Part shown: positions 11,552-35,242 of the stretch, one piece after another | How the letters are laid out: each line of letters opens with the position of its first letter | Position numbering within the stretch: position 1 is the stretch's first letter | NCBI RefSeq assembly: GCF_945862485.1 | Contig: NZ_CAMAYF010000002.1 | Location: 102,659-166,658 of the forward strand | From: Sphingorhabdus sp. EL138 | GTDB taxonomy: Bacteria; Pseudomonadota; Alphaproteobacteria; Sphingomonadales; Sphingomonadaceae | Direction: 5' to 3' | DNA: 64,000 nucleotides | Notes under the pieces: generated by a model | Told to the model about the DNA's origin: nothing | The model's input: the letters and a program-made list of their open reading frames with translations, nothing else | Databases searched by the model: none | Position numbers and translations under genes: made by a program

Positions 11552-13999
11552 TCAGAAACGGAATGTTGCACTCACGCCATAAGTCTGCGGATCACCGGGT
11601 GTGTAGCTGGTGAATGCAAGTGGCGTATTCTCCGTCGAAAGCAGACGGGTGAAGTATTTTTCCTTCATGATATTGCGTGCATAGAAAGCCAATTCCAAGT
11701 TCGGATTATCGAGCTGGAGAGCAATACGCGCGTTGAGAAGCCCATAAGAGGGGATCATCGACGTGTTTTGCAAGCCGTTGCTGATTGCTGCAATTTCGGT
11801 CGCTGTTTTTCCGACCCGCGATGCTGCGGATGCTGCGATTGGCGAAGCGAAGACCTTTGAACGCCATGAGTAATCAGCATGCAGCTTCACTGTGCCGGCG
11901 CCGATATCCATTGCATAATCACCAAAGACACCAAGGGTGTTTTTCGGCGTGTAAGGGAATTCCGCTCCAGACCAATCGGCTCCATCTAGGTTGGTGAAGC
12001 TTTGATATTTCGCGTCCGTTACCCCGAGATTTGCACCCAAGGTCAAACCGTCAGTCGGCAAGACCGTCAACTCTGCTTCAAAACCGCGAATGCGCGCTTT
12101 CGCCGCATTTGCAACACCAGACACAAGCCGCGTGCCCACAGCACCGATCACGTTACGTTGCACGTCATCAATATTTGAATTGAATGCCGCCAAGTTCATT
12201 CGGACACGACGGTCGAGTAGGTCAATCTTCGCGCCAGCTTCATAGTCGGTTACGACTTCAGGAACAAAGCTAACTGGAGGCACACCACCTGTAACCGCGC
12301 GGGTGTTAAGGCCGCCCGAACGCTGCGATCTGCTTGTCTTTACATAGACGAACAAATCATCAGAAGCCTGCCAATCTGCACTAACTAGATACGACATATA
12401 ATTGAACTTACGTTGCAATGTGGCACGGAGCGGATCGCTCGCATCGCCGTCCAAGAGACCATCAGCAACCGTGCCCAGCGAGGATGTCACAACATTGGTT
12501 AGAACGTTTCGGTCTTTGTTGCGAAGCACCATGTCGCGCTTGTCATCCGTATAACGCAAGCCGCCAGTAAGACGAACCGAATCCGTCACATTATAGATCA
12601 ATTGGCCATATGCTGCTGCGCTGCGGTTCTTAACGGTGCCATCAACAGATGCCACCGAAGGGCTAAGTGGGAACAGGCTGCCGCTGTCGGAGCGGTCGGT
12701 TCCATTTTCAACAAAGTAAAATCCGCCTACAATGTACTGCAACTGCCCCGATTTACCAGAGAGTTGGAGCTCCTGAGAAAACTGATCTTGGTTGATACGG
12801 TTACCGGCCACTGGCGGCAAGCCGCCGCTGAACCAATATGGAGTACCGTCATTGTCAGTCGAAGACTCCAATTCAACACCGCGCCAAGCCGTCGTCGACT
12901 TCAAGACAGCAGCGTCAGAGAACGCATACTCCAGCACCGCGGAAGCACCATAGCTGTCCGACTTACCATAAGCTGGCGTGCCGCCAAAAGTCCGGTAAAT
13001 GTCAGTGTTGCCATTTTGCCCGTAAACGTAGCTAGCAACCGGACCTGGACGGGTTAACAATGTTGGGCAAAGTGGGATGGCGCCGGCCTTCAGGCCGCCA
13101 AGAAATCCAGCGGTTGAAGCAGGAAGTCCGGCCGGAAGTGCTTGAGTACCGCAAGCAGCAGCGAGCAGCTCTGTCGGTGCAAATGCATTGGGAGCGGAAT
13201 AGGACTTTAGTCCAACAAGCTCACCCGAATTGCGGAACTTCGAAAAATCGCCTGAGATAAGTGCTGAGAACTTGCTACCGTCTGGGTTGATACCCATTGT
13301 AAAGCGGGCATAGTCAGATTTCAGGTCGGCCAAAGGTGCGTTACGCGTAACCGTCCGACCGTAGCCATCATGCTCACGGCGCTGATACGCAGCGCGCACG
13401 GCGACGCCAGAACCCAGCGGAACGTTAACCACGCCTTGAGCCAATATGCTATTGAAGTTACCATAGTCGAACCGCATGGAACCTTCAAATTCGTCGCTCG
13501 GCTTGTTGGCAATGATGTTGATTGCACCACCCGTCGTGTTGCGTCCGAACAGCGTACCTTGCGGGCCACGGAGGACCTCGACCCGCTGAACATCGAGAAG
13601 ATCGGTTGCACCACCTGTTGATCGCGCAGCATATACACCGTCAACATAGACACCCACCGCCTGATCGATTGCAATCAGACCGTCCGCCGAACCTTGTCCG
13701 CGGATAAAGACAGTAGAAGAGCCAGGTTGGGCAACAGCGCTTGAAAATGTCAAGTTAGGCGACGACGCCTGAATTTGCTGAATATTAACAATCGCCTGCT
13801 CCGCCAGTGCTTCTCCGGAAAGCGCACTCACGGCGACAGGCGTCGTCTGCAGGCTTTCGCTCGTCTTACGTGCGGTAACAATAATCTCAGCAATTCCGCC
13901 ATCATTTTCGGCTGGTTCAGAAGACTGAGCATATACTGGGATAGATAGTGTTGCGGCCGCAATAAACGCAGCTCCGCCCAAAAACTGGTACTTTTTCAT
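11552..13999 (-). CDS. TonB-dependent outer-membrane receptor
   Basis: An 815-residue receptor. It starts with a cleavable signal peptide (MKKYQFLGGAAFIAAATLSI, cut near VYAQS). The plug domain follows with IIVTARKTSESLQTTPVAVS as the TonB-box-side segment and VEVLRGPQGTLFGRNTTGGA near residue 135. The C-terminal barrel ends in aromatic VSATFRF. The strong AAAGGAGAGGAC ribosome site sets the start. This sphingomonad-type receptor probably imports the large hydrophobic or charged substrate of the island across the outer membrane with TonB energy. The ligand cannot be deduced. Confidence 0.94.
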   Translation of the reverse strand: MKKYQFLGGAAFIAAATLSIPVYAQSSEPAENDGGIAEIIVTARKTSESLQTTPVAVSALSGEALAEQAIVNIQQIQASSPNLTFSSAVAQPGSSTVFIRGQGSADGLIAIDQAVGVYVDGVYAARSTGGATDLLDVQRVEVLRGPQGTLFGRNTTGGAINIIANKPSDEFEGSMRFDYGNFNSILAQGVVNVPLGSGVAVRAAYQRREHDGYGRTVTRNAPLADLKSDYARFTMGINPDGSKFSALISGDFSKFRNSGELVGLKSYSAPNAFAPTELLAAACGTQALPAGLPASTAGFLGGLKAGAIPLCPTLLTRPGPVASYVYGQNGNTDIYRTFGGTPAYGKSDSYGASAVLEYAFSDAAVLKSTTAWRGVELESSTDNDGTPYWFSGGLPPVAGNRINQDQFSQELQLSGKSGQLQYIVGGFYFVENGTDRSDSGSLFPLSPSVASVDGTVKNRSAAAYGQLIYNVTDSVRLTGGLRYTDDKRDMVLRNKDRNVLTNVVTSSLGTVADGLLDGDASDPLRATLQRKFNYMSYLVSADWQASDDLFVYVKTSRSQRSGGLNTRAVTGGVPPVSFVPEVVTDYEAGAKIDLLDRRVRMNLAAFNSNIDDVQRNVIGAVGTRLVSGVANAAKARIRGFEAELTVLPTDGLTLGANLGVTDAKYQSFTNLDGADWSGAEFPYTPKNTLGVFGDYAMDIGAGTVKLHADYSWRSKVFASPIAASAASRVGKTATEIAAISNGLQNTSMIPSYGLLNARIALQLDNPNLELAFYARNIMKEKYFTRLLSTENTPLAFTSYTPGDPQTYGVSATFRF

Positions 14000-24328: not shown

Positions 24329-25141
24329 TCAGGCAGGGTGTTTGGAAACAACCCGAAGGCGCAGGTCGAGTAAGGGCGCATCCAATATGGCGCGGCCGAC
24401 GTCGACTGCATCGGCCCCTGCCTCTGCCGCTGGCACCAGATCCTGCAAACGGACACCGCCACCAAATGCCAGCCGCACGTCCCGCCGCAATCCAAGCCGC
24501 GTGAGTTCGGCGTGCACGTCGGCTAAATCGGCTAGGTCGGCGGTATCAACCATGATGATCCCTGCGCCCGTACGCACCGACGAAACGGCTTCGGCGACTG
24601 ATTTAACCTGCACGGCCACCGGACCATGACCGACGGCAACGCCCGCCTTAATCGCGGCATCCACACCACCCAGCATGATAACAGCGTTTTTACCGACATA
24701 GACAAAATCGCCAGCAACAAGCCGCGGCAAGATACCAGAAACAGCAAGCCCGGCGCGCAGCAATTGCTTCAAAGCCAAAGGCAATTTCTTCCATCCGCCG
24801 CAAGCAATGGAAAGGCCGGCAGGCGCAGATTCGCGAAACGTCTTCGCGCGCGTCGCAATTCCCGAAGCAAAACCGAGAGGCCCAAGCACATAGTCTTCCG
24901 CAACGCCCAAATGCGCTGCCTCACCAATCAGTTCGATAAGTGGCTGTCCTGCGGATACGGCATCTCCTTCCGCCACCAGCAATCTCCACGATCCGTTCGG
25001 TCCTAACGAGTCCGACGGGTCGACAAAACCAGTGCCTGCAATGATGCCATCCTCGCAGGCTTCGACAATGGCACGATAAAGGCCCGTTGCGCCGCCAAGC
25101 AGGCTTCCGGCGATGTCTGCTGCCGCAGGTGCTGGGTTCAC
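24329..25141 (-). CDS. Quinolinate phosphoribosyltransferase-fold protein (NadC/ModD-like)
   Basis: A 270-residue protein of the NadC fold. The second half is recognisable: VGKNAVIMLGG, IIMVDTADLAD, and LAFGGGVRLQDLVPAAEAGA, then DAVDVGRAILDAP, matching the barrel strands of QPRTase. The canonical TRKT and HR active-site residues are replaced (GGWKKLP, VSGILPRL), so the substrate may differ. It starts at GTG 25141 overlapping the LarC stop (GTGA). In an operon that makes a nicotinate-derived cofactor, it could supply nicotinate mononucleotide or a relative. A ModD-type role in molybdenum metabolism is a less likely alternative. Confidence 0.75.
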   Translation of the reverse strand: MNPAPAAADIAGSLLGGATGLYRAIVEACEDGIIAGTGFVDPSDSLGPNGSWRLLVAEGDAVSAGQPLIELIGEAAHLGVAEDYVLGPLGFASGIATRAKTFRESAPAGLSIACGGWKKLPLALKQLLRAGLAVSGILPRLVAGDFVYVGKNAVIMLGGVDAAIKAGVAVGHGPVAVQVKSVAEAVSSVRTGAGIIMVDTADLADLADVHAELTRLGLRRDVRLAFGGGVRLQDLVPAAEAGADAVDVGRAILDAPLLDLRLRVVSKHPA

Positions 25142-25869
25142 ATTGTCACCAAAAAGAAATTCGCGCCGTTGGGGAGGTTTTCGAACACCTTGCCGCCATA
25201 AGCACGCGCAGAGGTGACCACTTTACATTGCGGCCACTTGCCAAAACGCGCACCAGCCGCTTTCAAAAAAGCCAATGCGGTCGGTGTGACCGTTTCACCG
25301 CTAGCGTCCGCTCCGTATACTGGAACGCCGTTGAGCATCTCCTGAACCGCGGGTGGCAGGCTGGCCAATAGTCCATGTTCGCAACGGATTATGCCATCAC
25401 ACATCGGCAGAGGGCTGCAATGGAACTCGGCCGGGTCAATCTTTGTGAACAGCGCTGCAGCAACGCAGGTGTCTAAAATAGAATCGAGAGCGCCAACCTC
25501 ATGAAAATGCACTTCGTCCACCGAACATCCATGCACGGTGGCTTCTGCTTCGGCCAATATCGCAAACGCTTTTGTTGCCAGCGATTTTGCCGCATCGGTC
25601 AACCCGCTGCGTTCTATGATGTCATAAATCGTTTTTGGCGTGCGGTGGTGGTGTTCATGCGGAAGGGTAATGCGCGCCTGAAATCCGGTAATCCAATTCA
25701 CATGATGCGGTTCAACGGTCACGCAATCATGCAGCGCTTCCACCCCGATACTATCGACCAGAGCCGACAGTTCGGCATTGCTTACCCCTGCCAGTCGGGC
25801 AAGGCCCGTCAGCAGCATATCGCCGCTAATCCCCGAAGGTGTGCGCAAAACGATCGATTGGCGCTTCAT
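25138..25869 (-). CDS. larC: LarC-like nickel insertion protein, N-terminal half only
   Basis: A 243-residue protein. It has the LarC opening TPSGISGDMLLTGLARLAG, a short histidine patch HEHHHR near residue 67, and VHFHEVGALDSILDTCVAAA near residue 120, ending after GGKVFENLPNGANFFLV. Characterised LarC proteins have about 420 residues, with a C-terminal CTP-dependent insertase domain (LarC2 part). That half is absent here and no frameshift remnant follows, because the next gene starts at once. ATG 25869 overlaps larB by four bases with AAGGA upstream. It should bind nickel and the pincer precursor; the nucleotide-activation step must come from another protein. Confidence 0.88.
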   Translation of the reverse strand: MKRQSIVLRTPSGISGDMLLTGLARLAGVSNAELSALVDSIGVEALHDCVTVEPHHVNWITGFQARITLPHEHHHRTPKTIYDIIERSGLTDAAKSLATKAFAILAEAEATVHGCSVDEVHFHEVGALDSILDTCVAAALFTKIDPAEFHCSPLPMCDGIIRCEHGLLASLPPAVQEMLNGVPVYGADASGETVTPTALAFLKAAGARFGKWPQCKVVTSARAYGGKVFENLPNGANFFLVTM

Positions 25870-26534
25870 GTCGTGTTCCTTGAAATCATATTGAGTATCC
25901 GGATCGCGCCGCACGCCGCACCAAAGCCATTGTCGATGTTGGTCACCAAAACGCCCTGCCCGCAGCTTGATAACATGGAATGCAATGCGCTCGTTCCGCC
26001 TGCTGCCACACCATATCCAGTCGAAGACGGAACCGCGATGACGGGCTGTCCAGTTAATCCGCCCATCACAGAGGCAAGAGCAGCATCCCATCCCGCCACA
26101 ACAATCACAAGATCAAATGTTTTGATATGGTCTATCCGCGCCAACAAGCGGTGGATGCCCGCGACACCAACATCGGCAATACGTTCCGCATGGATACCCG
26201 AAAATTGCAATGTGCGCATCGCCTCACCCGCTACGCGTAGGTCCGATGTTCCTGCTGTTACCACTGCGACTGAAAATGGCCGCGGTGGAAGAGTGCCATG
26301 CAAGTAGGCTGTGTGCGATTGTATATCATAATCCAACGACGCCCCGCTATTGATCGTGAGATCTGAATATTGATCAGGCAACAGCCTTGTAAACAGAGCG
26401 GGCGCACTAATGTTCTTCGAAAGCTCCTGATAGATTGCGTCTAACGCAATCGGGTCTTTACCCTCGCAGAAAATAGCTTCCGGCATTCCCAATCTTGTTA
26501 GGCGGTCTTCATCATGCACAAATCCGCTGTTCAT
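25866..26534 (-). CDS. larB: LarB, pyridinium-3,5-biscarboxylate mononucleotide synthase
   Basis: A 222-residue member of the AIR-carboxylase-like LarB family. The C-terminal PurE-like domain shows VTAGTSDLRVAGEAMRT, IADVGVAGIHRLLARI, VVAGWDAALASVMGGL, AVPSSTGYGVAAGGTSALHS, and TNIDNGFGAACGAIRI. LarB carboxylates nicotinate adenine dinucleotide and releases AMP, the first step of nickel-pincer nucleotide synthesis. Trp replaces the common Met in VVAGM. GGAGG precedes ATG 26534. It overlaps larE and larC by four bases each. Confidence 0.93.
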   Translation of the reverse strand: MNSGFVHDEDRLTRLGMPEAIFCEGKDPIALDAIYQELSKNISAPALFTRLLPDQYSDLTINSGASLDYDIQSHTAYLHGTLPPRPFSVAVVTAGTSDLRVAGEAMRTLQFSGIHAERIADVGVAGIHRLLARIDHIKTFDLVIVVAGWDAALASVMGGLTGQPVIAVPSSTGYGVAAGGTSALHSMLSSCGQGVLVTNIDNGFGAACGAIRILNMISRNTT

Positions 26535-27361
26535 TTTGCCTCCACAAAGGCCCGGCCGGGCTTATAAGACTGCGCATCCAGATGCGCCATTTGAATGCTT
26601 GGTTCGAAAGTTGCCGCAAGTTCGCCCAATTCGCGAAGCAGCCGCGCCGTAATGAAATTACGGTCATCATCCGTCACTTCAACGATAAGCTGATCATCTT
26701 TCACGCGGCACCTTACGACAATGATACCGGTGACTTCTTTCACCCGCTTTTCGCAAGCATGCACGGCACGCAGGCGTTCTGCGGTCACCCTTGTTCCTGT
26801 ATACAAGCGACTGGCAAGGCACGGCGACGAAGGAAGCTCGGCAAAGGGCACTCCAAGTAAACGCGCTAGCGTCCGAATGTCCGCCTTGGCATATTCAGCT
26901 TCGATCCAAGGATGACGCACGCCGCGTTCCGCCGCGGCATCAAGACCAGGCCTGTATTCGCCAAGATCATCCAGATTGGCGCCGCTGAGGACTGTTCCAT
27001 TGTTATGCGCCGACGCAATTTGCATGAGGCTATCATACAGATTGGATTTACAAAAATAACAGCGGTTTACCGGGTTCGAGAGATAGTTTTCATCCTGAAA
27101 TTCGCCAGACAGAACAATCGATAGCTGCCACCCCTCCTGCTCCGCAAGCGTCCGCACCCGTTCAGTCGCCTCTGGCGGAACGGCTGGGCTGATTGCGTGC
27201 GCAACTGTTACCTTTTTAGGGGCATGACGATGTGCGACCAGAGCGAGCAGCGTGGAATCTATCCCGCCGCTACACGCGATAACGGCATGATCGATGCCGT
27301 CCAAAACGATTTGAATTTCCTGAATATGGTCAGAGACAGGCATGTACAACTGGTCCAGCAT
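26531..27361 (-). CDS. larE: LarE, PP-loop sulfur-insertion enzyme for the nickel-pincer cofactor
   Basis: A 276-residue ATP-pyrophosphatase-type protein. The PP-loop is ACSGGIDSTLLA at residues 29-40. Cysteines C101 and C104 in NRCYFCK and C181 in SSPCLASR are conserved-looking. Three cysteines in these positions resemble the LarE subgroup reported to use an iron-sulfur cluster rather than sacrificing a single cysteine. LarE adenylates the biscarboxylated pyridinium nucleotide and converts carboxylates to thiocarboxylates. It overlaps the NadD-like gene by 32 bases and larB by four. ATG 27343 is an alternative start. Confidence 0.93.
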   Translation of the reverse strand: MLDQLYMPVSDHIQEIQIVLDGIDHAVIACSGGIDSTLLALVAHRHAPKKVTVAHAISPAVPPEATERVRTLAEQEGWQLSIVLSGEFQDENYLSNPVNRCYFCKSNLYDSLMQIASAHNNGTVLSGANLDDLGEYRPGLDAAAERGVRHPWIEAEYAKADIRTLARLLGVPFAELPSSPCLASRLYTGTRVTAERLRAVHACEKRVKEVTGIIVVRCRVKDDQLIVEVTDDDRNFITARLLRELGELAATFEPSIQMAHLDAQSYKPGRAFVEAK

Positions 27362-27926
27362 AAAGTTTATGGCGCGTGATATAATCTAGGACACTGGCAT
27401 GCATCATGCCCTCCGATGGTCGTCCACCGGAAGACAAAATTGCCCTGACCGAACTCGAGGATGTTGCTACAGAGGCGAACTCCAACCAAATCAACCGCTC
27501 GTCAGGTGTCGCGGCATATATTTTATTTCTCGGCAGGATCGCGAAACGTAACATGCTATGCAGATCGGCTATCCCTTTCCAATGCTGCAGGCGGTCGACA
27601 CAGTCATCCCCCAATAAAAAGAAAAGCTCCGTTCCTTTAGGAAAGGTCGCTTGTAAACTCCTTACGGTGTCGACTGTAAAACTTGGCCCGATCCGGTCAA
27701 TTTCAATCGTGCTGACGCGCATAGCTTTTTCGCTTTGAATAGCAAAGTTCAGCATAGCAACGCGGTGTTTGCCATCGGCAAGGCCGGTATTCCCCTTAAG
27801 CGGCGGGTGACCGGACGGGATGAAAACTACTTCGTCAAGCAACACGGCTTCTTGGGCATTACGCGCTGCCGCAACATGACCTTCATGGACGGGGTTGAAA
27901 CAACCTCCATATAGGCCAACACGCAT
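27330..27926 (-). CDS. nadD: NadD-like nicotinate mononucleotide adenylyltransferase
   Basis: A 198-residue nucleotidyltransferase. The start is ATG 27926, giving MRVGLYGGCFNPVHEGH, the canonical N-terminal nucleotide site. The C-terminal SSSSVRAILSSGGRP corresponds to ISSTxIR, and the protein ends with YITRHKLY. NadD makes nicotinate adenine dinucleotide from nicotinate mononucleotide and ATP, and that product is the LarB substrate. Lying between the nickel transporter and larE with overlaps, this is probably a pathway-dedicated copy and not the housekeeping gene. A strict NAD role is not excluded. Confidence 0.88.
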   Translation of the reverse strand: MRVGLYGGCFNPVHEGHVAAARNAQEAVLLDEVVFIPSGHPPLKGNTGLADGKHRVAMLNFAIQSEKAMRVSTIEIDRIGPSFTVDTVRSLQATFPKGTELFFLLGDDCVDRLQHWKGIADLHSMLRFAILPRNKIYAATPDERLIWLEFASVATSSSSVRAILSSGGRPSEGMMHASVLDYITRHKLYAGPVVHACL

Positions 27927-27928
27927 AT

Positions 27929-28540
27929 TTATGCGCCCACCAGCCAATAACCACCCATGCCGATAGCAAGGGTTGCAACGCAAGCGCGGATCGGTTTGAC
28001 AAAAGTCTGTCCGCGCTGAGCAATCAGCGCCTGTAACCGGTCAAAAGCGTGACCAAACCCAATCATCCCGACAAGCACACCGAACGAAAAAACAAGAACA
28101 TAGAAAACCCCATGAACTGGCGACAGCAATCCGATGGGAAGTAAGGCAAAAACCGCCGCACTTCCCGCGGTGCCATGGACCATCCCAATCAAAAATGGTG
28201 CGCGTGTTCCGGGCAATAATGTTTTGGGGCTATTGTTCCGCCATAACGCGAGAGCAAGGCTACCACCGGCGGCAATCAGGATAACTCCGACAATACGCTC
28301 CGCGCCTGTTGGCAAGGTTTCGGGCAGAGGTGTTTTAAACAACAGCAAGGCAAGCGCGGCAATTACCAAGATGCCCCCATGGCCAATTCCCCAAGAAAAC
28401 GCATATCGCTTCGTTGCACCCCGCGCGTCAGGGCGCGCGCCAAGCGACGACATGGTCATCACATGATCAGGATCAAAAGCATGCAAAATGCCCATGCCAA
28501 GGCCAGCCACAAGGACCGTGAGAAATTCGAATGATATCAT
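27929..28540 (-). CDS. Nickel transporter (NiCoT/UreH-like membrane protein)
   Basis: A 203-residue membrane protein with about six hydrophobic segments. The metal signature HX4DH is present as HAFDPDH at residues 20-26 in the first helix (LGMGILHAFDPDHVMTM), as in nickel/cobalt permeases. A second conserved histidine motif is HGTAGSAAVFALLP near residue 120. It overlaps the MoCF-like gene by four bases and precedes the NadD-like gene. The expected role is nickel uptake across the inner membrane for cofactor metallation. Cobalt is an alternative on sequence alone, but the lar context argues for nickel. Confidence 0.88.
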   Translation of the reverse strand: MISFEFLTVLVAGLGMGILHAFDPDHVMTMSSLGARPDARGATKRYAFSWGIGHGGILVIAALALLLFKTPLPETLPTGAERIVGVILIAAGGSLALALWRNNSPKTLLPGTRAPFLIGMVHGTAGSAAVFALLPIGLLSPVHGVFYVLVFSFGVLVGMIGFGHAFDRLQALIAQRGQTFVKPIRACVATLAIGMGGYWLVGA

Positions 28541-29439
28541 ATATGTGCGAGCTCCATTTTATGGGCCTTCCAAAGTGCCCGAATGGGTGTTGCAATTGTT
28601 TCTGCCAATGTGGCAGGTGCCTGCCCTTCGGCCACTGCCTTTACAAGTACTGGTAGGGCGGCCAAGACTTCCCGCGTTGGTCCCGGCAGGGCGACAAGCA
28701 ATATATTGCCAATGCGCCCACATGCTACACGGACATGGGGTTTAACATGGCGGCCATGGCCCACCTTATATTCTGCTAAAACGGCTGTCGAAAGCTCCGG
28801 AGCAAGGCGCTGCATCGCCTCGATCGTTTTGTCTTTATCTTCTGCCCCGACGCCACCAGTCGTGATGATCATGCCATAACCTTCTTCAAGCAAATGGCCA
28901 ATACGCGCCGCGATCAGCGCTTCATCATCTTCGATCACGCCGGCATGATCGACCCGATAGCCTTGATCACCCATTATAGATTTCACAGCGGCGTAGTTTG
29001 TATCCTCAATTTCCCCGCGCGCCACTTCGCCACCGGTGGACAGCACCACAACGGACCGAGCCACATAAGCTTGCAATCCCGCCTCAAGATTTGCCGCATT
29101 AGCCAATATATCTGCGGCCTGCTCGGCGGGCGCACCTATCACTCCTAGCACGCCGAAGCTATGCACTGATGCTTGGTTACCCAGTGTGACACCTGAAAAA
29201 GCTGCGAGTGCAGCAAGCAGCGCGGCTTCTTTGCCCGCAATTGCGTCGAGGATGACGGTCTGAGACACCACGTCAAACACGACCCTTTGGTCACGGACGT
29301 CGGTCACAAATATGTCTTCCGGTCCTAAACCTAATATATCGCCGGCACATAGAGCGAGGCGGGTGAGATCCACATCATCAAGAATGATGTCTTCTACCCA
29401 AAGCTCGGTCTTGGAGAGAAGGTCAAGGTCAGTTGCCAC
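28537..29439 (-). CDS. MoCF/CinA-like nucleotide-binding protein, copy 1
   Basis: A 300-residue protein with two parts. Residues 1-115 form an unrecognised domain (TELWVEDIILDDVDLTRLA, VFDVVSQTVILDAI). Residues 125-290 form a molybdopterin-binding-like (COG1058/CinA) domain with LSTGGEVARGEIEDTNYAAV, MIITTGGVGAEDKDKT and LPGPTREV. There is no C-terminal NMN-deamidase domain. GTG 29439 follows the LarA-like stop by three bases. The paralog at 34352-35242 holds the same place behind the second LarA-like gene. Related domains adenylylate molybdopterin or cleave ADP-ribose. I infer a role in activating or metallating the pincer nucleotide. Confidence 0.82.
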   Translation of the reverse strand: MATDLDLLSKTELWVEDIILDDVDLTRLALCAGDILGLGPEDIFVTDVRDQRVVFDVVSQTVILDAIAGKEAALLAALAAFSGVTLGNQASVHSFGVLGVIGAPAEQAADILANAANLEAGLQAYVARSVVVLSTGGEVARGEIEDTNYAAVKSIMGDQGYRVDHAGVIEDDEALIAARIGHLLEEGYGMIITTGGVGAEDKDKTIEAMQRLAPELSTAVLAEYKVGHGRHVKPHVRVACGRIGNILLVALPGPTREVLAALPVLVKAVAEGQAPATLAETIATPIRALWKAHKMELAHI

Positions 29440-29442
29440 GGG

Positions 29443-30855
29443 TCAGGAAAGTCCGCGCTGTGCCAGCCATTTGGGCAATAACTCTTCACCAACCATTTTA
29501 TCGACCGCTGGCGCACGTGCCTTCAACAAGTCGGCTAAGGCTTGATTGCAGGTCAAATGGCCATAGCTTCCGTCAAAAACGATCAATTTGTCTGTCTGTC
29601 CCTTTTCACACGCCATCGCGACGCCCTGATGCAAACTGTCAACCACAGTGGCGCGGTCCATCAACAACGGGTTAGTAGGGTCTTCACGCCACATCTGAGC
29701 TTGTTCTTCGCCGACAATATACATTGGCGTTGTAAAGGGCATGGTCACATAAGGAATGCCTGCACCAACCCAAGCCTGATTGACAACAACCCCGCGCAAA
29801 TTTTTATTCCGCGAGAAGTTTACTGGCGCAGTGGGCGATTGCATGAATCCTGCAACTACAGGTTGGTCAAGGTCGAACGCATCCGAATGGTTGGTAAGAA
29901 GCGTGCCAAAAATCAAACCGCCGCCATGAAGATAATAGCCCCAGCGACCGCCGTCCCAAATGGCAACACAATCCTTTATCTCCGCGAATAATCGCTGCAT
30001 TCGGCCATAGGTTTCAAGATGGCTTTTGGTAATGCGTCGATCAATGGCATATAAATCGGTTGTCGCATCGACCCCAATGACCCCCATGGGCGTCGTGCAC
30101 AATACTGAACTAAATGTATAACGTTGCTGGATGAAGTCGCTATCGAACAGTGCGCGGGGGATGACGCTGCCGCTGCGATTGCCGAACATGCTATGATAAA
30201 CAGACCGCGTTTCATACCGCGCATAAGACATGCAAAACGACTTGAACGATTTGTACAACAACCGATTGAAGTACATTTCGCGCGGATCGTCATAATAAGC
30301 GTGGATGAACTTTGTCGCATCAAAGGCCCGTTTGATGAGGTACATCGGACCTACAACAGTTTCGACTTCAACGCCTTGGTCAAATGGCCCGAGGCCTTTT
30401 ACCCGTCCCTCGAATGCCTCGTTAAATCCGAAATGCTCGGCAACTTCTTCTGCCTCTTTGAAGCCCCGATAAATGGCCAGCCGCAAATGGATTTTTGTAC
30501 ACCCCGTGCGCTCTATCACAACTTCGCGGATCGTTTTGATCATTTCGGCATAAGGCCAGCCGCCCATCAAGCCAAAGCCATGCTCCGAAGCGAGAATGTT
30601 AACGCTATCCGTCGCCGCAATGCTCGACATATCAACGAGGGCAAGCGATTTGCGCGTTTCAGCGCGTACCCGCTCTAGATCAGCTTCGAGTGTTTCGGGA
30701 TATCCCGACGTTATAGCAGGCGCAAAGTTTGGGAAGAATTCTGTCAGCGGTACCGAAACCATGGACTCAATCGTCTCGGAAACATGCGGCTGAAGCGCTG
30801 GCCCGTAATCTGAGTGCATGAATGCAGGAGGCTTGATCGCGGTATGAGCATTCAT
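29443..30855 (-). CDS. Divergent LarA-like nickel-pincer enzyme, copy 1
   Basis: A 470-residue protein, distant from lactate racemase LarA and similar to the protein at 32925-34355 over its length. Shared blocks include FDSDFIQQRY and the spacing lysine K205 to histidine H221. That 16-residue step equals K184 to H200 of Lactobacillus LarA, where K184 holds the pincer cofactor and H200 binds nickel. H185 (KFIHAYY) may stand for a catalytic His. The His of the LarA GFH segment appears replaced (RGFKEA). ATG 30855 is chosen, with AAGGAG upstream and a TGATG overlap with the ferredoxin gene. Substrate unknown; probably a hydride-transfer epimerase or dehydrogenase. Confidence 0.68.
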   Translation of the reverse strand: MNAHTAIKPPAFMHSDYGPALQPHVSETIESMVSVPLTEFFPNFAPAITSGYPETLEADLERVRAETRKSLALVDMSSIAATDSVNILASEHGFGLMGGWPYAEMIKTIREVVIERTGCTKIHLRLAIYRGFKEAEEVAEHFGFNEAFEGRVKGLGPFDQGVEVETVVGPMYLIKRAFDATKFIHAYYDDPREMYFNRLLYKSFKSFCMSYARYETRSVYHSMFGNRSGSVIPRALFDSDFIQQRYTFSSVLCTTPMGVIGVDATTDLYAIDRRITKSHLETYGRMQRLFAEIKDCVAIWDGGRWGYYLHGGGLIFGTLLTNHSDAFDLDQPVVAGFMQSPTAPVNFSRNKNLRGVVVNQAWVGAGIPYVTMPFTTPMYIVGEEQAQMWREDPTNPLLMDRATVVDSLHQGVAMACEKGQTDKLIVFDGSYGHLTCNQALADLLKARAPAVDKMVGEELLPKWLAQRGLS

Positions 30856-31466
30856 CACAATATCTCCTTCGAAAGTGGCCCATATTTGTGTTCGGGATCA
30901 AAAACCGCCCTGTCTTCTTCAATATAGGCGTCAGGATATTTGGCACACACTTCATCGCTTAGATCATAAAGCGAGAGCGTTGAGGGATACCAACGGTGTT
31001 GACCCGGCGGCGTCATATCGCATCCTGCAGCTTCAAGCAGACGCAGCGCTGGAGCCACGCAGTAAATGCCACACCCCGACCGCATACCGGTTGCTGCACA
31101 GACTTCTTCTAGATTTTTCGCACCTTTGATAATCGAAGCTGCGATTTCCGATCCCGGCGTCAATGTGCACACACATACTGACATGGCGGCTTCAATACCT
31201 GCTTTCTCGAGCAGAGCGGTCACTGCCTCCTGATCCACTTCGTCAGGATGAACGGTTGTCACCAACGGTTCTGAACGCTGTATCATCCACATGATATCTT
31301 CGGGGCAGCGATCAACGCAGCGTCCACAGCCAATGCACAAGGCTTCGTCAATAACAGGCTTACGCGCTTCCATTTTAATGGCACCACTTGGGCAGACGAT
31401 GTCACATAATTTGCAACCAGTGCATGGATCCGCGTTATAATCTGCGACAAGTTTTATCGTGGCCAC
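30855..31466 (-). CDS. Ferredoxin/BFD-like iron-sulfur fusion protein, copy 1
   Basis: A 203-residue protein. Residues 10-60 carry two complete [4Fe-4S] motifs (C15, C18, C21, C25 in CTGCKLCDIVCP; C44, C47, C50, C54 in CIGCGRCVDRCP). Residues 95-140 carry C98-x-C100, then 31 residues, C132-x3-C136, resembling the [2Fe-2S] domain of bacterioferritin-associated ferredoxin but with x3 in place of x2. This order is unusual. It is the first enzyme gene after TetR in the leftward operon (GTG start with GGGAG). It likely passes electrons to or from the LarA-like protein, or serves iron-sulfur-dependent LarE chemistry. Confidence 0.85.
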   Translation of the reverse strand: MATIKLVADYNADPCTGCKLCDIVCPSGAIKMEARKPVIDEALCIGCGRCVDRCPEDIMWMIQRSEPLVTTVHPDEVDQEAVTALLEKAGIEAAMSVCVCTLTPGSEIAASIIKGAKNLEEVCAATGMRSGCGIYCVAPALRLLEAAGCDMTPPGQHRWYPSTLSLYDLSDEVCAKYPDAYIEEDRAVFDPEHKYGPLSKEIL

Positions 31467-32268: not shown

Positions 32269-32919
32269 TTGCCCAAACGCGTTCGCATGGTGGCACAAAT
32301 CATCGTCGATAAATGCACAGGCTGCCGCCTGTGTGAGCAAGTGTGCCCAACGGTTGCGATTGGTATGCGGCCACGCCGCGCGGATGAGCCTGGTACAGGA
32401 CGCAACATAGCCGTCTTAGAACCAGAAGCCTGCTACAATGCACAGGCATGTGTCGAAATCTGTCCTGATGATGCCATCGAGATGGTCGAGTTAGACGAAC
32501 CTTTTGATGTCGGTTTTGAACTACCCCAAGTCGACGAAGACGCCGTAAAAACATTATGCCGAAAAGCAGGCTATGGCCGCAATATGCAAATTTGTGTTTG
32601 TACCGATACCAAAGCCGGGGACATCGCGACGGCCATTATCGCGGGTGCACATTCTCCTGAAGCGGTTTCGCTTGCGACCGGTGCCCGAACAGGATGTGTC
32701 GAATTATGTATGCAACCCATCTTGCATTTGCTCGCTTGTGCAGGGCACGGAGATGCTCCACGTAACCCCAAAAATGGGTTCCAATGGTATGGCGAGTCAG
32801 CAACTTTATGGCAACATGTGCAGCCCGACGGCTCGCTCCCCGAAGCGATCCGTAACGCCTTCCCTGAATATCCGCTCGACAAGGAATTTGGTGACATGGC
32901 GAAATTGAAAAGGCGTTAA
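32269..32919 (+). CDS. Ferredoxin/BFD-like iron-sulfur fusion protein, copy 2
   Basis: A 216-residue paralog of 30855-31466. The first cluster motif is complete (C16, C19, C22, C26). The second reads C55-x5-C61-x3-C65, with alanine where the middle cysteine (position 58) should be, so a [3Fe-4S] or altered cluster is likely. The BFD-like motif is C109-x-C111, 31 residues, C143-x3-C147. The TTG at 32269 is the start, supported by AGGAGG five bases upstream; ATG 32287 has none. It leads the rightward operon directly before the second LarA-like gene. Role inferred: one-electron carrier for that protein. Confidence 0.85.
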   Translation: MPKRVRMVAQIIVDKCTGCRLCEQVCPTVAIGMRPRRADEPGTGRNIAVLEPEACYNAQACVEICPDDAIEMVELDEPFDVGFELPQVDEDAVKTLCRKAGYGRNMQICVCTDTKAGDIATAIIAGAHSPEAVSLATGARTGCVELCMQPILHLLACAGHGDAPRNPKNGFQWYGESATLWQHVQPDGSLPEAIRNAFPEYPLDKEFGDMAKLKRR

Positions 32920-32924
32920 TCAGA

Positions 32925-34355
32925 ATGGCGTTGCTTTCACCATTTATGGACGCGTTGCGTCCGCCAGCCTTTCACCGCACATGGAACAAGCGCGAGCCCG
33001 CCAAGGTGGTCGCTAAGCGTGCAGCTGATCTTCCCGGTATGACCGCCCTGCCCATCCGTTCTTTGATGCCGGACCTGCCGCAGACGATCTGGTCCGAAGA
33101 TGCTTTGCTTGGGCCAACAAATCTCGATGAGGTGCGGCGGCAGGCACAGGTCAGAGCAGAAGCGCTGGACTGGTCTAAAATTGAAGCTGGTCGCATGGTC
33201 AATCTCATTGCCAATCCGCATGGCTTGCAATTATGCGGCGAGGCCTATGTGACAATGCTTGAGGTGATTGCCGAGCATGTCAAAAAGACCCGTGGCGCGA
33301 AAGTTCGTCTGCGTATCGCGGAATCGATGGGGCATATCGAAAATCCCGATTGGGTAAAAATCTACCGGCTCGAAGAGCGGTTCGGAGATGTCGAAGAATG
33401 CCCGCAAATGGGTGCCGGAACCAAAGTCGATACAAAACTTGGCGACATGTACGTCACCAAAAAATTGTTCGATGCACCCTATTTTATTCACACCCATGTG
33501 ACCGAAATGCGCGAGGGCTATTTGCACCGCATGCTCGATCGGCTGATGAAACCGTTTGGCATGGCATATGCCCGGCTGGAATCGCGCTCAGCTTATCATT
33601 TCGGCTTTGGCCCGCGCACAGGCCAGATTGTGTCGCGCTGCATATTTGAAAGCGACTTCATCCAGCAACGTTATGTCGGCACCATGGTGCTTGATACCAC
33701 ATCGGAAGGGGTGGTCAGCGTCGAGGCCGATAATGATTTAAAGGCACTTGATCGTCGTTTGGCCGCAGGGATCATGCGCAACTACGCCATGGCTATGAAA
33801 ATTTTGGGCGAAATAGAGGATTGCGTGGTGGTATTCGATGACCATGGCTGCGGCGTTTATTGTTATGCTGGCGGAATTGCATTCGACAATATGCTCTGCG
33901 CCGACGTCGATTTCATGGATCTAGACAACTTATCTTTGCTGGCGGCAGAACGTCACGATAGCGCCGAACCGGGCCTAACCATGGGCAAAAACAATGCCAT
34001 TAAAGCGATTGTAGTCAACTATATGGCGGGTGGTGTGCCTCAGCCATTTCTTTGGGATAATTATCCGATCCATGTCGTTGGTGACACGGTAAACAGATGG
34101 ATGTTGAACGATCCATCCAACTATCATTTTGATCGTGCAAAGGCTCCTGTCTGGCCGACGTTGGATGAGGCCGTTGAAGCGGCCTGCCGCGATGGAGGGA
34201 CTGACAATATCATCGTGTTTGACCGCACCCCCGGTGCCTTCAGGGTTAGCCGAAAGCTAGGCGAGCACCTCATGTCACGCGCACCGCATGTTCGCGATCG
34301 GGTCGAGAATGAATTCCTACCCAAATGGTTACGTCAACGCGGGTTAGCACTATGA
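32925..34355 (+). CDS. Divergent LarA-like nickel-pincer enzyme, copy 2
   Basis: A 476-residue protein. AKVRLRIAESMGH followed by ERFGD parallels the LarA block holding catalytic H108, here H137. H189/H191 in YFIHTHV may replace H174. K209 (RLMKPF) and H225 (SAYHFGF) are 16 apart, as are the pincer-lysine and nickel-histidine of LarA. The glutamine/lysine QxxK of classical LarA is not evident. Length exceeds LarA (about 425) because of an N-terminal extension. It overlaps the MoCF-like gene by four bases. It is placed in the DUF2088/LarA superfamily by inference; substrate probably not lactate, given the surrounding terpenoid/steroid-type genes. Confidence 0.7.
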   Translation: MALLSPFMDALRPPAFHRTWNKREPAKVVAKRAADLPGMTALPIRSLMPDLPQTIWSEDALLGPTNLDEVRRQAQVRAEALDWSKIEAGRMVNLIANPHGLQLCGEAYVTMLEVIAEHVKKTRGAKVRLRIAESMGHIENPDWVKIYRLEERFGDVEECPQMGAGTKVDTKLGDMYVTKKLFDAPYFIHTHVTEMREGYLHRMLDRLMKPFGMAYARLESRSAYHFGFGPRTGQIVSRCIFESDFIQQRYVGTMVLDTTSEGVVSVEADNDLKALDRRLAAGIMRNYAMAMKILGEIEDCVVVFDDHGCGVYCYAGGIAFDNMLCADVDFMDLDNLSLLAAERHDSAEPGLTMGKNNAIKAIVVNYMAGGVPQPFLWDNYPIHVVGDTVNRWMLNDPSNYHFDRAKAPVWPTLDEAVEAACRDGGTDNIIVFDRTPGAFRVSRKLGEHLMSRAPHVRDRVENEFLPKWLRQRGLAL

Positions 34356-35242
34356 CGTCGGTTCAATTGTTGGAAAAAACAGAGGTCTGGCTTCATGGGA
34401 TCAGCCTTGCCAACGCGAACCTTCCGAATTTGGCTAATGTCGTTGCCGACATACTCATGTTGCCGCGTGATAAAGTGTTCGTGACCGACGTCCGGGCAGA
34501 TTTGGTCGTCTTGGACATTTTGGTGCCACGTGTTGAGCTGGAAAATATTACCGGTAAGCAGGGCGAACTGCTTGAGGCGATCGCCGACATATCTGGTGTT
34601 CACGTCGCAGATAATGCATCCATTCATTCCGAAGGCATTTTGGGCGTCATCGGAACGCCACGTGCCGAGGTTGACCGTTATCTGGCCGATGCGCGCAAGT
34701 TGGAAAACCAGATCGCTCATTATGCATCGCGCCGCGTCGCTGTGGTCAGCACAGGCAGCGAGTTACTCGCTGGCGAGATAGAGGATACAAATTTTGCGGC
34801 CATTCGCAGTGCGATGGACGATGCTGGTTTTGAGGTTGAATTTGGTGGCATCGCTGGTGACAGCGAAGCGGAGATCGCCGGCATTGTGGCCCGATTGTCA
34901 GGTGAAGGCTTCGGCATCATTATCACCACCGGCGGTGTTGGCGCAGAGAACAAGGACCACACGATTGAGGCGATTGAACGGCTCGACCCAGACCTTTCTA
35001 CAGCTATATTGGCGCAGTATAAGCGTGGCCATGGCAGGCATGTAAAAGATGCGGTGCGGATTGCTATCGGACAGCTTGGTTGGTCGACGATCTTTGCTCT
35101 GCCCGGACCTACGCATGAAGTTAAACTGGCCCTGCCCGTCATAATGGATGGTTTGAAAGCGAAGTTAGACAGGCGCGATCTGGTGGAAGCCATTGCGGTG
35201 CCGCTGCGCTCGACCCTGCCCCATCATCACCATCACCATTGA
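34352..35242 (+). CDS. MoCF/CinA-like protein, copy 2, with natural C-terminal hexahistidine
   Basis: A 296-residue paralog of 28537-29439. The unrecognised N-terminal domain starts EKTEVWLHGISLANANL. The MoCF domain has VSTGSELLAGEIEDTNFAAI, IIITTGGVGAENKDHT and LPGPTHEV. It ends LPHHHHHH followed by the stop, six consecutive histidines encoded in the genome. Such a tail binds Ni2+ strongly and is absent from copy 1 (which ends HKMELAHI). The ATG at 34352 overlaps the LarA-like stop. I infer a nickel-delivering or cofactor-activating role that could substitute for the missing LarC domain. Confidence 0.82.
   Translation: MTSVQLLEKTEVWLHGISLANANLPNLANVVADILMLPRDKVFVTDVRADLVVLDILVPRVELENITGKQGELLEAIADISGVHVADNASIHSEGILGVIGTPRAEVDRYLADARKLENQIAHYASRRVAVVSTGSELLAGEIEDTNFAAIRSAMDDAGFEVEFGGIAGDSEAEIAGIVARLSGEGFGIIITTGGVGAENKDHTIEAIERLDPDLSTAILAQYKRGHGRHVKDAVRIAIGQLGWSTIFALPGPTHEVKLALPVIMDGLKAKLDRRDLVEAIAVPLRSTLPHHHHHH

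Follow-up and report, generated by a model that had tools for sequence, protein, structure and literature searches.

The window, as the whole 64,000-nucleotide stretch of Sphingorhabdus sp. EL138 DNA analysed here is termed, contains a minus-strand operon with the gene order Fd1, LarAL1, MoCF1, NicO-like, NadD, LarE, LarB, LarC and NadC-like. Fd1 (30855..31466) is a 4Fe-4S ferredoxin and BFD-like [2Fe-2S] protein with matches to the Pfam families Fer4 and Fer2_BFD. LarAL1 (LarA-like protein 1; 29443..30858) is 471 aa in length, and its AlphaFold model matches LarA (8ezh) and malate racemase (6d6z). MoCF1 (28537..29439) has an extra N-terminal domain and a MoCF/COG1058-type domain (PF00994, 76.9 bits, cut-off 26.6). 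Next is a NicO/NiCoT-like membrane protein (27929..28540), which displays the HX4DH motif as HAFDPDH and a PF03824 match that is below the cut-off (E=0.013); judged by its sequence, it is a probable nickel permease. A second nadD, encoding nicotinate-nucleotide adenylyltransferase (27330..27932; TIGR00482, 137 bits), precedes larE (26531..27361; 276 aa; TIGR00268, 245 bits, cut-off 150) and larB, the gene for the NaAD carboxylase/hydrolase (25866..26534; 222 aa; NF033503, 238 bits, cut-off 175). The short larC (25138..25869, with its ATG at 25869) encodes 243 aa that comprise LarC1 only, and the last gene is a NadC/ModD-like QPRTase paralogue (24329..25141; PF01729, 46 bits). All of these genes are on the minus strand. 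LarE has a CxxC and a third Cys (NRCYFCK...SSPCLASR), a pattern described for the [4Fe-4S]-dependent type, and is otherwise ordinary.

A second Fd-LarAL-MoCF module is found at 32269-35242 on the plus strand, oriented divergently from the operon. It consists of the ferredoxin Fd2 (32269..32919), LarAL2 (32925..34355), which is 36% identical to LarAL1, and MoCF2 (34325..35242), whose start overlaps LarAL2 by 31 bp and which ends in a natural C-terminal HHHHHH. Outside the operon, the genome has another NadD homologue on contig C27, a housekeeping-type NadC at C3:24261 and, beyond the operon copies, three further MoCF proteins. The operon copies are thus dedicated paralogues.

The AlphaFold model of MoCF1 (pLDDT 90) has as its best PDB match the COG1058 domain of CinA (3kbq), and it is also close to MoeA/gephyrin E and MogA/MoaB proteins. 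Both the PF00994 score and the fold place it in the MoCF/COG1058 group. MoCF shares the domain fold of MogA/MoeA/Cnx1 and CinA but differs from them in its extra N-terminal domain, in its His-rich tail and in having NPN genes, not molybdopterin genes, nearby. The motif TTGGVGAEDKDxT is conserved, and many MoCF homologues have the His-rich C-terminal tail. MogA and MoeA work as a pair, in which a cofactor is first activated and afterwards metallated via an adenylylated intermediate. For COG1058, ADP-ribose pyrophosphatase activity has been reported (PMC4246079).

The short larC gene

At the amino acid level, PF01969 covers the short LarC over profile positions 3-231 of 375 (E=2.7e-54), and NCBIfam TIGR00299 nickel_LarC1 scores 151.4 bits against a cut-off of 90, which places the protein among LarC1 proteins, as does its co-occurrence with LarB and LarE in the operon. 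In an alignment with 22 full-length LarCs, its C-terminus coincides with the LarC1/LarC2 boundary. Of the conserved LarC1 columns, 32 of 47 are present in all three short LarCs found (see below), and past the end of the short LarC none of the 23 conserved columns is present. The metal-rich motifs HEHHHR and HFHEVGALD..D are retained, and the GYGAG motif of the linker, which full-length LarCs conserve, is altered. A Clostridium LarC (L035:1492-3264) has an exceptionally long His-rich insertion within LarC1, with many HDH and HGH repeats.

Read from the sequence, the larC start and the larB stop region share 4 bp (25866-25869), and the larC stop region shares 4 bp with the nadC-like start (25138-25141). 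The original prediction, that larC ends after the LarC1 region at 243 residues, overlaps both neighbours and is not the product of a simple frameshift, is therefore borne out by the open reading frame, both profiles, the alignment and the two junctions. A frameshifted or overlooked LarC2 downstream is ruled out, as the nadC-like gene begins within the larC stop region in three of three genomes.

Short larC genes are also found in an uncultured Sphingomonadales genome (L006) and in a Sphingomonadaceae genome (L007), each with a 4 bp nadC-like overlap, and the junction is ATGA or GTGA across the short-LarC assemblies. Between the window and L006, the short LarC is 91% identical, compared with 79% for LarB and 76% for LarE, and its dN/dS is 0.041, an approximate value since dS is close to saturating among the relatives at hand. 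The short larC is thus real, is under selection and encodes a single domain. Decay or an assembly error, which would make the short LarC a remnant and the operon non-functional, is highly improbable: only the truncation itself speaks for it, and it is opposed by purifying selection (dN/dS ∼0.04) and by an end point and 4-bp junction that are identical in three assemblies.

In the tree, the three short LarCs group together as a supported clade on a long branch. A single loss of LarC2 is expected to give just such a clade, and these sequences point to one such loss, in an ancestor shared by a small group of sphingomonads. In a phylum sample of 398 genomes, LarC is present in 40 (∼10%); 38 of these LarCs are full-length, one is a contig fragment and one, that of the window, is short. 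Among 72,556 plasmid records, matches to the short LarC were distant only (<60% identity) and there were none to LarAL, and plasmid-borne spread was rejected. The viral contigs searched had no relative of the short LarC.

The missing LarC2 half was sought genome-wide, the check proposed with the original prediction. A second real copy of PF01969 is not present in the own genome (96.6% complete), where the other match (E=0.22) is a glutamate 5-kinase-like open reading frame. A LarC2-only profile, built from 13 sequences, recovers LarC2 in four of four LarC-bearing control genomes and also retrieves the PDB entries 6bwo and 12bi, both crystal structures of LarC2, as well as 3c19, a stand-alone protein. 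The same profile finds nothing at E<=10 in the three short-LarC genomes (G000, G301 and G302). Thus, the LarC2 CTP-binding domain was found neither in the short LarC nor elsewhere in its genome. The idea that LarC2 is hidden in the N-terminal domain of MoCF is unsupported, as the hhalign probability for the pair is 0.9% and LarC2 is not among the best 50 fold matches.

In comparison with the LarC cyclometallase of L. plantarum and M. thermoacetica (12bi, 6bwo), the short LarC shares LarC1, the HFHEVG motif and the LarB/LarE neighbours but is without the CTP-binding LarC2, and its GYGAG linker is altered. In L. plantarum, LarC1 and LarC2 are split over two reading frames. The two halves are likewise separable where LarC2 stands alone, as in 3c19, in Clostridium sp. 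chh4-2 (L017) and in a Thermoproteota genome (L036), but the L. plantarum, L017 and L036 genomes still encode LarC2, whereas it was not found in the short-LarC genomes. The L036 stand-alone LarC2 (G309, C6:24123-24506) and another at G687:C40:7452-7868 are both near a full-length LarC. A different rearrangement is seen in a Syntrophobacteraceae genome (G307), where a LarC open reading frame with an internal deletion (L037:1492-1932) joins profile positions 1-36 to 220-263 and adjoins a cinA-like gene; a full LarC is also present.

LarAL and its associated genes

LarAL has no sequence matches in Pfam, NCBIfam or the PDB, and hhalign gave weak results; the fold search alone gave matches. The AlphaFold model (mean pLDDT 83) matches only lactate racemase 8ezh (3.4e-7) and malate racemase 6d6z (4.8e-6) in the PDB at E<=0.001. 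TM-scores are moderate (0.38-0.53), and the fold is that of LarA. Lar_N (PF09861) has no match in G000, G301 or G302, and its hhalign probability with LarAL is 1.2%. K206 and H222 are invariant in 20 of 20 sequences, and their spacing of 16 equals that of the LarA Lys/His pair which holds NPN, with the residue equivalence taken from a weak profile alignment. In L. plantarum LarA, His108 and His174 are catalytic. By the same weak alignment, a His is not conserved in LarAL at the His108 position, and the equivalence of the invariant H186 to a LarA catalytic His is uncertain. Relative to the lactate and malate racemases of the LarA family, LarAL thus has the fold and the Lys and His 16 residues apart but is without a Pfam Lar_N match and, by that alignment, a conserved His at the His108 position, and it is always found with a ferredoxin/BFD protein.

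Every one of the 15 LarAL genomes has both LarB and LarC, compared with LarC in ∼10% of those in the phylum sample, and in five of the 15 no canonical LarA was detected. Together with the LarA-like fold and K206/H222, this makes LarAL a strong candidate for an NPN user. LarAL may thus bind NPN, and it is likely to be the client of the operon. Of the genomes that have larB, larE and larC, about 15% are reported to be without any larA, so NPN users still to be found must exist (PMC11796402). LarAL supplies a specific candidate for some such users in larA-less genomes, its LarA-like fold being missed by sequence models. Judged by the model, it looks like a ferredoxin-linked relative of lactate racemase that had so far gone unrecognised.

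In other lineages, LarAL has as neighbours HpcH/HpaI aldolase, acetaldehyde dehydrogenase, DmpG-type aldolase, FAA-hydrolase family proteins, aldehyde:ferredoxin oxidoreductase and TRAP-type or other transporters, which include genes of 2-oxo-acid and aldehyde metabolism. These neighbours and the ferredoxin suggest that hydroxy or oxo acids undergo a redox reaction. The substrate is probably a hydroxy or oxo acid, or a CoA-pathway intermediate, and the constancy of the ferredoxin partner suggests that LarAL performs net redox chemistry and not racemisation.

The LarAL/Fd/MoCF module is also found in Acidimicrobiia, deltaproteobacterial lineages, a Thermoproteota archaeon and Clostridium. Full-length LarC accompanies the module in each of the 12 other genomes that carry it, including two in which canonical LarA was not detected (G308 and G314). 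A link between the MoCF-like genes and the short LarC had been implied, with the check whether LarC is always short in their presence; in these 12 genomes that check comes out negative, and the notion that MoCF implies a short LarC is rejected. Loss of LarC2 appears to be specific to one sphingomonad clade. In Clostridium sp. chh4-2 (L017), a stand-alone LarC2 (13037-13516; PF01969 positions 240-375) lies inside the LarAL/MoCF cluster and adjoins a BenE-family permease, and the same genome has a full LarC elsewhere. The presence of MoCF in the module must thus have another cause. NadC and MoCF paralogues of divergent sequence accompany LarAL across several phyla, and the Acidimicrobiia with full-length LarC also carry a NadD-like gene. 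In Clostridium sp. MCC353 (L016:7631-9367), a NadC/ModD-like protein is naturally fused to MoCF.

Nickel insertion and the nucleotide handle

For LarC it has been reported that CTP cytidylylates the P2TMN phosphate, that nickel is inserted and that the anhydride is then hydrolysed (PMC11796402). The statement that the part missing here binds CTP in known LarC agrees with this chemistry and with 6bwo, a LarC2 structure that the LarC2 profile recovers. Since the LarC2 half is missing without a frameshift and was not detected at any other locus of the genome, the known CTP activation must be supplied otherwise or dispensed with; the expectation that the operon replaces or bypasses this activation thus gains support. 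Nickel insertion in this small sphingomonad-type group must do without the domain known to provide activation, and a selected LarC in a genome without the CTP domain makes it testable whether the nucleotide handle is essential or exchangeable.

The preferred reading, a tentative one given somewhat less than an even chance, is that the short LarC performs the nickel-inserting step of an NPN operon that serves LarAL, with the CMP handle of LarC2 most likely swapped for AMP. The operon still encodes NadD, which adenylylates pyridine mononucleotide, and MoCF, whose fold is of a kind that makes or breaks adenylyl anhydrides. With these two in an operon without LarC2, AMP for CMP is the simplest swap. 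NadD adenylyl transfer to nicotinate mononucleotide is of the same chemical type as the LarC cytidylylation of P2TMN (PMC11796402). The operon NadD would make NaAD, and the AMP could be retained through the LarB and LarE steps or re-added by NadD/MoCF. LarC1, presumably inserting nickel alone, would metallate the adenylylated precursor, and the His-tailed, COG1058-like MoCF might hand over nickel, cleave the phosphoanhydride, or both.

Several observations bear on this AMP handle from the other side. MoCF, NadC-like and NadD-like genes also occur with full-length LarC, and replacing LarC2 is therefore not the sole purpose for which any of them evolved. Conservation within the operon is lowest for NadD (56% identity), not what a newly critical role would lead one to expect, and the L017 stand-alone LarC2 that adjoins MoCF counts against the swap. 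Perhaps MoCF and NadC-like genes, which predate the loss of LarC2, permitted that loss without having evolved for the role. A complete second nickel-pincer route, in which AMP (as NaAD or re-added) replaces CMP, LarC1 alone metallates, and a nickel-tailed CinA/MogA-fold protein releases the product to a ferredoxin-coupled LarA-fold oxidoreductase, is rather unlikely. The chief surprise is the pair itself: a cyclometallase reduced to LarC1 and, as its probable client, a ferredoxin-linked protein with the LarA fold.

It is possible, if on the unlikely side, that LarC1 is sufficient and that unactivated P2TMN is metallated, perhaps slowly, without any handle and with the aid of the permease and of nickel delivery by the His-tailed MoCF. 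This fits the retained HEHHHR and HFHEVGALD..D motifs and conserved LarC1 columns, as well as the NicO-like gene, which adjoins MoCF1 in the window, L006 and L007, but published LarC chemistry requires a cytidylylated intermediate (PMC11796402) and the GYGAG linker of full LarC is altered. Activation by CTP might also occur in trans, through a non-homologous or undetected nucleotidyltransferase, or through a LarC2 in an unassembled part of the genome. Natural stand-alone LarC2 proteins (L017, L036, G687, PDB 3c19) make action in trans plausible in principle, and the incomplete own genome leaves some room for a missed gene; yet three separate assemblies are without LarC2, and the same profile was positive in the four control genomes, so that this explanation is rather improbable.

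Still more doubtful is a different final cofactor, such as an adenine dinucleotide or one made without the canonical nickel step, tailored for LarAL by the NadC-like protein and MoCF. The occurrence of NadC and MoCF paralogues with LarAL in several phyla, and the L016 fusion, favour such tailoring, as these proteins are unnecessary for plain NPN. However, LarB, LarE, LarC1 and the nickel permease-like gene are all retained in the operon, and LarAL retains the LarA Lys/His pair, as far as the weak alignment establishes equivalence. The cofactor built with the short LarC looks like a nickel-pincer cofactor.
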